Positions 47,991 to 64,000 of a stretch of DNA of 64,000 bases are shown piece after piece. The stretch is taken from contig NZ_BMIC01000002.1 in NCBI RefSeq assembly GCF_014641635.1, forward strand, positions 372,001 through 436,000. The letters run 5' to 3'. This DNA is from Aquaticitalea lipolytica (GTDB lineage Bacteria; Bacteroidota; Bacteroidia; Flavobacteriales; Flavobacteriaceae). The position numbers and the translations under genes were made by a program. How positions within the stretch are numbered: the stretch's first letter is position 1; each line of letters opens with the position of its first letter. The notes beneath the pieces were generated by a model that worked only from the letters and a program-made list of their open reading frames with translations, ran no database searches and was not told the DNA's origin.

Positions 47991-49418
47991 ATGGAGGTAA
48001 CTGCGCAATCGGTTTGGAATAATTGTCTGTCTTTTATAAAGGACAATATTCAGCCCCAAGCCTACAAAACTTGGTTTGAACCAATTGTAGCTGTGAAGTT
48101 TACCGACAATGCTTTAAGTATTCAGGTACCTAGCAAATTTTTTTATGAGTGGTTAGAAGAGCACTATGTAAAAATCCTAAAAGTTGCTTTAACTAAAGAA
48201 CTTGGTGAAAACGCCAAACTTGTTTACGTTATTAAAATGGAAAACACTTACGGTAATAAGCAACCATTTACAGAAAAAATTCCGAGTTCTAATAGAGGTG
48301 CAATGAAATCACAAGATGTTGATGTACCTTTAAACAATAAAAACCCTGAACTAAAGAATCCTTTTATTATACCTGGAATTAGAAATGTTAAGATTGAATC
48401 TCAATTAAATCCTAATTATAATTTCGAAAACTTTTTAGAAGGAGATTCTAATCGTTTGGCTAGAAATGCAGGTTTAGCTGTAGCAAACAAGCCAGGTGGC
48501 ACTTCATTTAATCCATTATTAATTTTTGGAGGTGTTGGTCTAGGAAAAACACATTTAGCTCACGCTATTGGTATTGACATAAAAGACAAATATCCTGAGA
48601 AAACGGTTTTATATATTTCAGCTGAAAAATTCACGCAACAATATATAGACTCAGTTAAAAAGAATAACAGAAACGATTTTATACACTTCTACCAGATAAT
48701 TGATGTGTTAATTATTGATGATGTTCAGTTTTTATCTGGAAAATCTGGCACGCAAGATGTTTTCTTCCATATTTTCAACCATTTACATCAAAATGGAAAA
48801 CAAGTTATATTAACTAGTGATAAAGCACCTGTTGATATGCAAGATATTGAACAACGTTTGTTGTCTCGTTTTAAATGGGGACTTTCTGCTGAATTGCAAA
48901 GCCCTGATTTTGAAACCAGAGTTTCAATCCTAAAAAACAAACTATATCGCGATGGTGTTGAAATGCCAGATGATATTATTGAATATGTTGCGAAAAACAT
49001 TAAAACTAATGTTAGAGAACTTGAAGGTGCCATTATTTCATTAATTGCACAATCTTCTTTCAATAAAAAGGAAATTACATTAGGTCTTGCAAAAGAAATT
49101 GTTGAGAAGTTTGTAAAAAATACCAAACGAGAAGTTTCTATAGATTATATACAAAAAGTAGTTTCAGACTATTTTCAAATGGATGTTAACACTTTACAAT
49201 CTAAAACAAGAAAACGTCATATAGTACAAGCAAGGCAACTAGCTATGTTCTTTGCTAAAAAGTACACAAAGGCATCGTTAGCTAGTATAGGTTCACAAAT
49301 AGGAAAACGTGATCATGCTACTGTACTACACGCTTGCAAAACTGTTGATAATCTTTCTTCAACAGACAAGCAATTTAGAAAATACGTTGAAGACCTTTCT
49401 AAAAAATTATCGCTTTAA
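47991..49418 (+). CDS. dnaA: Chromosomal replication initiator DnaA
   Basis: Opens the replication origin by ATP-dependent assembly on DnaA boxes. Domain I (about 1-85, SVWNNCLSFIKDNIQPQAYK), a variable linker, the AAA+ domain with Walker A GGVGLGKTHLAHAI and Walker B VLIIDDVQFLSGK, the sensor arginine region LLSRFKWG, and domain IV with the DNA-binding signature GKRDHATVLHACKTV. The length is 475 residues. The 191-bp upstream gap lacks a convincing cluster of DnaA boxes, so the origin is probably elsewhere. The phosphatase gene follows after 10 bp. Confidence 0.97.
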   Translation: MEVTAQSVWNNCLSFIKDNIQPQAYKTWFEPIVAVKFTDNALSIQVPSKFFYEWLEEHYVKILKVALTKELGENAKLVYVIKMENTYGNKQPFTEKIPSSNRGAMKSQDVDVPLNNKNPELKNPFIIPGIRNVKIESQLNPNYNFENFLEGDSNRLARNAGLAVANKPGGTSFNPLLIFGGVGLGKTHLAHAIGIDIKDKYPEKTVLYISAEKFTQQYIDSVKKNNRNDFIHFYQIIDVLIIDDVQFLSGKSGTQDVFFHIFNHLHQNGKQVILTSDKAPVDMQDIEQRLLSRFKWGLSAELQSPDFETRVSILKNKLYRDGVEMPDDIIEYVAKNIKTNVRELEGAIISLIAQSSFNKKEITLGLAKEIVEKFVKNTKREVSIDYIQKVVSDYFQMDVNTLQSKTRKRHIVQARQLAMFFAKKYTKASLASIGSQIGKRDHATVLHACKTVDNLSSTDKQFRKYVEDLSKKLSL

Positions 49419-61402: not shown

Positions 61403-61475
61403 CATCCAATTTCGGATTAACCTCTGGCGATATACGTGAATGTTGGTTTGAAAAAATCCTAAAAAAATAAAAGAG

Positions 61476-61826
61476 ATGAATTCTTTAGTAAAATTTGTAC
61501 AAGACGAATTTGTAGAAAAAAAAGACATTCCAGAATTTGGAGCTGGTGATACAATTACAGTGTATTACGAAATTAGAGAAGGTGACAAAAAACGTACACA
61601 GTTTTTTAAAGGTGTAGTTTTACAACGTAAAGGTTCAGGTGCATCTGAAACATTTACTATCAGAAAAATGTCTGGTACTGTAGGTGTTGAGCGTATCTTC
61701 CCAATTAACTTACCAGCACTTCAAAAAATTGAAGTAAACAAAAAAGGTAAAGTTAGACGTGCAAGAATCTACTACTTTAGAGGTCTTACTGGTAAAAAAG
61801 CAAGAATCAAAGAAAGAAGAGACTAA
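61476..61826 (+). CDS. rplS: 50S ribosomal protein L19
   Basis: A 116-residue ribosomal protein at the 30S-50S interface. It starts MNSLVKFVQDEFVEKKDIPE and carries GDTITVYYEIREGDKKRTQF, RKGSGASETFTIRKMSGTVG, VERIFPINLPALQKIEV and RARIYYFRGLTGKKARIKE. The gene order trmD-rplS is widely conserved. It has a recognisable promoter and a strong terminator. Confidence 0.97.
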   Translation: MNSLVKFVQDEFVEKKDIPEFGAGDTITVYYEIREGDKKRTQFFKGVVLQRKGSGASETFTIRKMSGTVGVERIFPINLPALQKIEVNKKGKVRRARIYYFRGLTGKKARIKERRD

Positions 61827-61848
61827 TCACAATAGTTTTATATCATAT

Positions 61849-61879
61849 AAAAGCCTTGAAAAATTCAAGGCTTTTTTTA
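61849..61879 (+). terminator. Rho-independent terminator after rplS
   Basis: AAAAGCCTTGAA (61849-61860) and TTCAAGGCTTTT (61864-61875) form a 12-bp stem with a 3-base loop, followed by T. Confidence 0.88.
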
Positions 61880-62067
61880 TTAACAAAAGTTAATAACTTT
61901 AGTTTATAAACGGTTGAAAACTAAATGATTGAAAAAGCAAATAATACCACAAAAGTTTTGTATTTTAGTAAAACGATTTAGCAACAACCTTTGTGTTGGT
62001 TTCAATGTCGGAATTTGAATTTAAGCTAAAATCGTATAAAGTAACGTTCTTTATAATATTGTTTTTT

Positions 62068-62488
62068 GAGGTTTTTTAAGTGTCACGTGTATGCGTGCAA
62101 ACTGAAAAATCATGATACTTTAAAAAGTACCGCATGTATAACAGGCCGTAACTAGTAAAGTTGAAAGTTTCTAAAGGTAGCTGTAACGAAAGTAACAGCT
62201 AAATCAGGAAACAATGTTTTAATGAGTATAAATTGCGAAAGCGACGTGTATTTTTAAAACATCAAGAAAAACAATTAAACTGAAGCATTGCAAGAACAAG
62301 TCAATACATTTTGAAAGTTTTGTAATGTTTTATTGAAATAGACAATACAAAAAACCGAAAAAGATGTGGGAATGAAAATTCAGCCATCTGAATTTAGTAG
62401 CAATGCTAAATAGGTTCGAGTAAAAACTATTTCAAAGAAAGCCATGTCAGAATAGTTCTACTATCGTGATATGGCTTTTGTTTTTTTA
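62068..62488 (+). ncRNA. Candidate large structured non-coding RNA between rplS and icd
   Basis: No convincing protein gene lies in 61827-62650. Paired elements: TAGCTGT/ACAGCTA (62178-62184 with 62195-62201) capped by C-GAAA-G; ATGTTTTA/TAAAACAT (62214-62221 with 62255-62262) enclosing TTGC-GAAA-GCGA; TCAATA/TATTGA (62301-62306 with 62331-62336); AAATTCAG/CTGAATTT (62376-62383 with 62388-62395); AAATAG/CTATTT (62408-62413 with 62427-62432). Long-range: GGTTTTTT/AAAAAACC (62070-62077 with 62349-62356) extended by TGTC/GACA, and AGCATTGC/GCAATGCT (62284-62291 with 62400-62407), which cross as in a pseudoknot. It ends in a strong terminator. The 5' end is uncertain: TAATATTG near 62055 is one base from the -7 consensus, but the transcript could begin nearer 61970. 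It lacks the conserved cores of RNase P RNA and a tmRNA tag. Confidence 0.55.
62438..62488 (+). terminator. Rho-independent terminator of the candidate ncRNA
   Basis: AAAGCCATGTCA (62438-62449) pairs with TGATATGGCTTT (62467-62478), one G-T wobble, with an inner ATAGT/ACTAT stem, then a T-rich tail TTTTGTTTTTTT. It points rightward and ends about 160 bp before icd, so it ends a transcript separate from icd. Confidence 0.8.
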
Positions 62489-62593
62489 TAGGTATATGTT
62501 TAAGGTTTTAATAAGAATACTATAAAATTTTTATAATCTTAATAAAACTTTTACCCTTGAAGCCATAACTCAAATAAAACCTCTTGAATTTTG

Positions 62594-62601
62594 TATATTT
62601 G
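62594..62601 (+). promoter_or_regulatory. -7 box (TATATTTG) for icd
   Basis: TATATTTG is an exact TAnnTTTG match, 49 bp before the ATG at 62651 and downstream of the ncRNA terminator. So icd has its own promoter. Confidence 0.5.
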
Positions 62602-62650
62602 CAAAGCTTAATTTTTTAAGCAGTTCCTATAAACTAAATTCAAACTATAA

Positions 62651-64000
<1,350 letters not shown>

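Follow-up and report, generated by a model that had tools for sequence, protein, structure and literature searches.

The stretch of DNA analyzed here (the window) comprises 64,000 nt of contig NZ_BMIC01000002.1 of Aquaticitalea lipolytica and contains a gap of 824 nt between rplS (positions 61476 to 61826) and icd (from position 62651). The following features were found in this gap.

61851 to 61877, + strand: terminator of rplS, an inverted repeat followed by a T run, read from the sequence, which sets rplS apart from the RNA gene
61889 to 61917, + strand: array of three GTTNATA-type repeats (GTTAATAAC-N4-GTTNATA-N4-GTTGA) upstream of the RNA gene
61961 to 61968, + strand: promoter -7 box, TATTTTAG (consensus TAnnTT(A/T)G)
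61973 to 62486, + strand: structured RNA gene with a predicted transcript of about 515 nt, conserved across genera, with a covarying and stable fold and without a conserved open reading frame (ORF)
62594 to 62601: second -7 box, TATATTTG, belonging to icd itself, read from the sequence

An initial annotation had proposed a structured RNA between rplS and icd, and this proposal is borne out by conservation, by the stability of the fold, and by covariation of the fold as a whole. The strong rightward terminator that it described is also present, at 62437 to 62479 plus a T run. Its start at 61965 had to be moved, as that position falls within the -7 promoter box; such boxes sit at -12 to -5 in the available text of PMC9723704, which places the predicted +1 at 61973. 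We regard it as nearly certain that 61973 to 62486 is a real, stand-alone structured RNA gene.

For comparisons among relatives we used 85 nonredundant sequences, which remained from 100 full-length matches after removal of 14 near-identical ones and of 1 by a length/N filter. At these 85 loci the -7 box is strongly conserved (T 99%, A 98%, T 99%, T 99%, then A 87% and G 88%), and a TTtG-like box ends 19 nt upstream of it in most of them; the window's own copy lacks a good -33 box. No conserved ORF was found in the RNA among the 85 sequences.

We rejected a small protein as the product of this region. Across the 85 sequences, the longest closed frames have a median of 34 aa and reach at most 69 aa, and among frames of at least 20 aa, no start column is common to more than 18 of the sequences. 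In the window itself, where frames of at least 25 aa were listed, all ORFs in the rplS-icd gap are 33 aa or shorter, bar a 44-aa frame overlapping the rplS end; no ORF within the RNA region exceeds 29 aa, and a 33-aa ORF on the other strand extends into it.

The upstream repeat array, searched with up to 2 mismatches, occurs only at this place in the A. lipolytica genome (G000). It was found at the RNA locus in six of seven other genomes and was not found in the seventh (G064), and one genome (G198) has one further site elsewhere with 2 mismatches. At least one loose copy, GTTN[AT]TA, lies upstream in 83 of the 85 RNA-bearing loci, and at least two lie there in 76; among 16 rplS-icd gaps that lack the RNA, 13 have none, 2 have a single copy, and 1 has two. 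The array is probably a factor-binding site of the RNA gene, and the tendency of RNA and array to be kept or lost together would point to a dedicated regulator.

These repeats also resemble DnaA boxes, and a dnaA gene (Bac_DnaA domain) lies on the same strand at about 48405 to 48890 of the window, some 13.5 kb upstream of the RNA. The region could accordingly be read as an element of the replication origin whose transcript is secondary, a reading to which we give practically no credence. It is favored by the presence of dnaA 9 to 15 kb before the RNA in G000, G149, G177, G015, G191, and G064; of seven single-contig genomes, five have dnaA about 9 to 15 kb ahead of the RNA, and four of these five have records that start at dnaA. 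Against it, dnaA is far from the RNA in G198 and G182, and the repeats lack the C of TTATNCACA, the DnaA-box consensus. Third-position GC skew, which is coarse and noisy, does not put the origin at the RNA in G198 or G149. We rejected the origin since neither the coarse skew nor the dnaA positions support it.

Occurrence of the RNA gene in Flavobacteriaceae

Plain BLAST with 61945 to 62495 gave a match in 19 of 60 genomes, including the genome itself and that of one congener, and in 11 of these 19, which belong to other genera, the match covers more than 350 nt at 68 to 75% identity. A profile built up from the closest sequences matched 64 of 97 stretches downstream of rplS at an E value of 1e-3, and 36 stretches entered a full-length seed. 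We also analyzed 80 named rplS loci, the best 80 of 583, taken from genome contigs. The rplS-icd gap is short (83 to 280 nt) in 16 of them and long (at least 540 nt) in 51; in the rest, icd lies outside the stretch (11 loci) or the contig ends (2 loci). The letter pattern of the terminator was found in 48 of the 51 long-gap loci, compared with 0 of the 16 short-gap loci. All four Flavobacterium loci with both rplS and icd among the best 80 of 583 have short gaps without the RNA. Seven loci with long gaps gave no profile match (L042, L059, L069, L072, L079, L085, and L089) and are possible remote members; the six inspected (all but L059) contain GUUC-like words, and most of them end in what resembles a terminator.

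For a family-wide search we used R1, a covariance model built on the 3' third of the RNA. Among 199 Flavobacteriaceae genomes representing 198 genera, it matched at an E value of 1e-3 or better in 114, with 71 of these reaching 80 bits or more. We inspected the flanks of the matches in all 71 strong genomes and in 25 of the 43 weaker ones, leaving out 18, and all 96 matches inspected lie between rplS and icd or adjoin one of them. Within the stretch, 68 strong loci contain both genes in 61 cases, rplS only in 5, and icd only in 2, and the remaining three (L001, L012, and L014) contain both; 22 weak loci contain both genes in 17 cases and icd only in 5, and the further weak loci L015, L016, and L018 contain both. 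The sequence profile alone detected nothing in 9 of the 22 weak loci. Because a search of whole genomes puts all inspected weak matches in one gene interval, there is strong support for their being true. One locus, L143 (852 to 2249), is an exception to the tight linkage, with about 1.4 kb of extra DNA between rplS and the RNA.

Where R1 matched a genome twice, the second match fell on the opposite strand at the same site, and the RNA is encoded by one gene per genome where found and is widespread in Flavobacteriaceae. Of 196 genomes sampled across the order, 10 matched, all in this same family. A 34-nt piece in a genome of another family (G054; E value, 7e-4) was taken as a chance match. We rejected a mobile element as an explanation, since the RNA occupies one place per genome among the scored candidates, is syntenic, and matches nothing at the DNA level in the phage and plasmid records that we searched.

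The RNA is absent from some lineages in which rplS stays adjacent to icd. On a tree of icd proteins from 65 named loci (15 of the 80 had no usable icd), with presence judged by the terminator pattern, the distribution of presence (47 loci) and absence (16 loci; 2 were unsure) needs at least 8 changes, or 5 if only the starred branches are trusted; an icd tree is not a species tree. Since presence is more frequent than absence, the gene seems to have been lost several times, as in Flavobacterium, Mesonia, and some Aquimarina, and at least 8 changes on the icd tree imply that the RNA is dispensable for the family as a whole.

The RNA could also be a cis-regulatory leader or riboswitch of icd, which lies downstream on the same strand in most of the loci fetched. 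We consider this highly improbable: the RNA is closed by a strong terminator, a separate TATATTTG box precedes icd, several loci have another gene inserted ahead of icd, and icd still follows rplS in loci without the RNA. The terminator, the separate icd box, and the intervening genes in relatives thus agree with the initial annotation, which had taken the RNA to be a stand-alone transcript. The same three features set it apart from the icd and icd-II riboswitch candidates, as it is not placed to control icd; according to the available text of PMC8632094, the icd motif occurs in Proteobacteria, and icd-II occurs mostly in Polynucleobacter and environmental sequences. In 11 of the 16 long-gap loci inspected, an intervening gene looks like one for a pentapeptide-repeat protein, as judged by eye from its repeats. 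Frames of this type of about 190 aa or longer were seen in L004, L006, L008, L022, L023, L025, L032, L034, L037, L051, and L060.

Predicted fold and its covariation

As RNA, 61973 to 62486 has a folding energy of -136.7 kcal/mol, compared with -96.6 ± 6.2 kcal/mol for 100 dinucleotide shuffles (z = -6.5); for the opposite strand, z is -3.2. RNAalifold predicted a branched fold on 35 sequences. The model of this fold has the following parts.

61973 to 62035, + strand: Domain I, helix P1 (61973 to 61982 with 62025 to 62035) closing hairpins P2 and P3
62037 to 62053, + strand: hairpin P4, with the conserved loop UAACGUU, of which AACGUU is self-complementary
62057 to 62276, + strand: Domain II, long-range helix P5 (62057 to 62067 with 62266 to 62276) closing a four-arm junction with arms P6/P7, P8/P9, P10/P11, and P12/P13
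62282 to 62331, + strand: Domain III, P14 and P15, ending in UCAA-UACAUU-UUGA
62333 to 62435, + strand: Domain IV, P16 closing hairpins P17 and P18, with GNRA-type loops
62437 to 62486, + strand: rightward intrinsic terminator, 13 pairs, 100% of cells paired

The 35 sequences came from the 36-sequence seed, from which L055 was taken out; L020 was dropped as a duplicate. Alignment A2 contains the 27 better-aligning of 35 sequences and excludes 8 more divergent ones. On A2, RNAalifold predicted 122 pairs, 66 of them with two-sided changes. In a merged model of 138 pairs, which was partly derived from the alignments on which the pairs were counted, 92.6% of cells over the 27 sequences are paired, compared with 83.6% for shuffled partners and 39 to 44% for slid ones. 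In this model, 82 pairs have two-sided changes, compared with 49.3 in the shuffles, and covariation is 0.379, compared with 0.205 when shuffled and 0.066 to 0.094 when slid; 0 of 500 shuffles reached any of the observed values. Three of the 138 pairs are nonstandard in the window's own sequence, among them 62057-62276 and 62131-62147.

We also applied a home-made, R-scape-like SIGNIFICANCE test, which uses a G-test with average product correction and tree-based nulls, to the 85 nonredundant sequences. With a null that spreads substitutions over all columns (global), 7 of 135,981 column pairs were significant at an E value of <0.05, of which 6 are RNAalifold pairs and the seventh (62230-62247) is a P13 pair of the 138-pair model. 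Five of these lie in Domain II (62131-62147, 62133-62145, 62120-62158, 62217-62259, and 62230-62247) and are significant with the global null only; 62297-62317 in Domain III and 62341-62427 in Domain IV also covary under this null. With a null that keeps the number of changes of each column, no single pair was significant among the 85 sequences, and in a test of 35 sequences only one pair passed. When the test was limited to the 135 predicted pairs, 29 passed with either null, and the predicted fold, itself obtained from the same alignment of 85 sequences, accounts for 19 of the 20 and 37 of the 50 top-scoring column pairs. Thus, the covariation support is modest for single pairs and strong for the whole set. 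The initial annotation had suggested testing its helices for compensatory changes in relatives; the fold as a whole passes such a test, and no individual pair does so under the per-column null.

For a check across species, we compared the duplex energy of each species' own helix arms with that of arms mixed between species. The own arms were better in 89% of comparisons for P8, 88% for P1, 82% for P9, 81% for P13, 80% for P11, and 78% for P3; in 76% for P12, P18, and the terminator; in 74% for P16, 73% for P15, and 70% for P2; and in 64 to 68% for P6, P7, P10, P14, and P17. Near-invariant helices cannot be judged by this duplex test (own arms better for P4 in 41%, with 42% ties; P5, 51%; P15b, 17%, with 69% ties). 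The arms of P1 give -6.25 kcal/mol with their own partners and -2.35 kcal/mol with those of other species, and 8 of the 10 P1 pairs have two-sided changes; only 70.9% of P1 cells pair on the MAFFT alignment.

The loops are also conserved. The P4 loop contains AACGTT in at least 70 of the 85 sequences (TAACGTT in 58, AAACGTT in 9, and CAACGTT in 3), and the P15 loop is UACAUU in 71 of 85. The two GAAA-capped hairpins reported in the initial annotation are present, with loops at 62188 to 62191 and 62237 to 62240. Four hairpins end in GNRA loops, in 76, 67, 62, and 51 of the 85 sequences, the counts in Domain IV being 62 at 62374 to 62377 and 51 at 62400 to 62403, and the loops interchange among GAAA, GCAA, GTAA, GTGA, and GAGA. 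Of the helices in Domain II, P5 is U-rich on one side and A-rich on the other and is paired in 97.6% of cells, and the arms are paired in 82 to 100%. The Domain IV pair 62343-62426 is poorly supported, with 22 of 26 cells unpaired.

Covariation extends to a distant, Maribacter-like group of 15 loci, with two-sided changes in 49 of 87 predicted pairs and 129 of 1305 cells noncanonical. This group retains P4, a P16-like helix, and the terminator, and its consensus still contains ACGTTC. For 5 Polaribacter/Tenacibaculum-type loci, 93 of 440 cells are noncanonical, and the alignment of 7 Aequorivita/Galbibacter/Sinomicrobium-type loci folds poorly, with 28 pairs.

The initial annotation had also described two long-range helices that cross each other. 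The words quoted for them are present (GGTTTTTT at 62070, AAAAAACC at 62349, AGCATTGC at 62284, and GCAATGCT at 62400) and each helix is perfectly complementary in the sequence of this genome, but the relatives do not support them. In 27 sequences, 65.8% of cells pair, compared with 65.2% for shuffled partners and 26 to 47% for slid ones, and covariation is 0.138, compared with 0.133 when shuffled; in the duplex test with up to 85 sequences, the own arms were better in 41 to 45%. We rejected the two helices on the 27-sequence counts and the cross-species duplex energies. A pseudoknot or alternative fold is likewise not upheld, since the strands belong to local helices that covary and the long-range pairs do not: GGUUU pairs locally with 62106 to 62111, GCAAUGCU is one side of a GNRA-capped hairpin, and two-sided changes are seen in P6, the helix that competes with the first of them. 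The first five pairs of the first long-range helix are mostly pairable in the 27 sequences, and at 62071-62355 the 85 sequences have A-U 11 times and A-C 8 times, as expected from independence. A transient alternative pairing may occur via the short core of this helix.

Comparison with known RNA families

The initial annotation had proposed a search against Rfam, and this search gave no family at gathering score in the gap. With the 4227 models of Rfam 15, only RF03130 reached its gathering score in the whole window, and 61800 to 62700 gave 20 scattered matches at E values up to 10, the best of 0.25 and all below gathering. Twenty loci of relatives gave the RF03130 leader alone. Thus, the RNA of about 515 nt lies outside every family that Rfam 15 recognizes at gathering score. 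OLE RNA possesses an Rfam model, and this model gave no match in the scan of the window. Among the papers listed in literature searches, none by its listing describes this RNA.

The RF03130 match, the L19-Flavobacteria leader, lies upstream of rplS at 61418 to 61445 (42.4 bits). It shares the locus with the new RNA and is a separate feature, a ribosomal leader of 29 positions.

The RNA is not RNase P RNA, tmRNA, or 6S-Flavo, all three of which are located elsewhere in the same genome; the initial annotation had likewise seen no RNase P core or tmRNA tag. The only RNase P RNA match (model RNaseP_bact_a) is at G000:C13:10151-10482 (198.8 bits), the only 6S-Flavo match (RF01685) is at G000:C1:32754-32861 (108.5 bits), and the one tmRNA match over the cutoff is at G000:C1:649535-649931; ARAGORN called no tmRNA in the window. 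Multi-arm junctions and GNRA-type hairpins occur in catalytic RNAs, and with its size, junction, and hairpins the RNA could be a ribozyme. We find this very unlikely, as no Rfam family matches at gathering score and the matches at E values up to 10 for 61800 to 62700 include neither introns nor RNase P nor any named family of self-cleaving ribozymes. A RAGATH-12 match (E value, 7.4) lies outside the RNA, on the other strand at 62566 to 62636.

Other bacterial RNAs share some of its properties. In the available text of PMC12286853, ROOL and GOLLD are also large, ornate bacterial RNAs, which assemble through loop contacts; ROOL is found there in prophages and phages, whereas the new RNA is chromosomal and syntenic. 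The smtA motif ("Soda Lake RNA," HRC-65-1), as described in part of PMC11109978, likewise exceeds 350 nt, is lineage restricted, and covaries; it lies upstream of smtA in Thioalkalivibrio, whereas the new RNA belongs to Flavobacteriaceae and has a terminator before the next gene. By its description in the available text of PMC9723704, Rfp18 of Flavobacterium psychrophilum can be set beside the new RNA as a structured noncoding RNA of the same bacterial family; the four Flavobacterium short-gap loci lack the new RNA.

Possible roles of the RNA

With many covarying helices, no sign of coding, and a position that is not that of a leader, the RNA is, as judged from its sequence, a large ornate stand-alone RNA, a likeness in kind and not in family. 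The nearest RNAs in kind are OLE RNA and the smtA motif. OLE RNA is 577 nt long in the case studied, has an ornate fold, and forms a dimer using a symmetric kissing loop among other contacts (PMC12286853, available text). The two are of similar length, with ornate conserved folds and a self-complementary loop, which in OLE contacts that of the second copy (same source). The new RNA differs in having no Rfam match. OLE also has partner proteins, such as OapA.

We asked which role these features favor. The RNA might regulate in trans, with exposed conserved loops (such as UAACGUU or UACAUU) that act mainly by pairing with mRNAs. In favor of this, both loops are strongly conserved, and Rfp18 is an sRNA needed for proper protease mRNA levels in F. 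psychrophilum, a member of the same family (PMC9723704, available text). This role seems unlikely to us, as the length and the dense covarying architecture go beyond the needs of seed-pairing sRNAs and the structure is kept while the sequence drifts. A protein decoy in the manner of 6S or CsrB-type RNAs, titrating an abundant protein, would fit a stand-alone RNA with a conserved upstream array and several GNRA-type hairpins. We rate such a decoy as distinctly unlikely, considering that 6S-Flavo is a separate gene of this genome and that no repeated protein-binding motif stood out by eye.

By analogy with OLE, the RNA may instead work as a scaffold or RNP, a role to which we give slightly less than an even chance. 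In this account, which we find the simplest, a separate RNA would be transcribed under the control of the upstream array and would fold into a stable particle; much like OLE RNA, the particle would probably bind protein and serve in trans as a scaffold or RNP. The self-complementary P4 loop may join two copies of the RNA. The statement as a whole, that this is a large structured noncoding RNA without a described Rfam relative, acting in trans as a scaffold or RNP, we hold to be somewhat more probable than its opposite.

When a large structured RNA persists across many genera, its task tends to be a basic one, and the known classes of this sort are few; this RNA gave matches in 114 of 199 Flavobacteriaceae genomes (198 genera) and yet has no Rfam family. 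With the fold, the predicted ends, the promoter, and lineages with and without the gene in hand, deletion, probing, and pull-down experiments can be designed at once. That it represents a new class of large Bacteroidota RNA machine, with a multi-arm junction, a dimer joined through the palindromic AACGUU loop, its own operator, and a function outside the known classes, is a doubtful proposition. The P4 loop is near invariant and shows no covariation, and kissing through it is a candidate interaction only.
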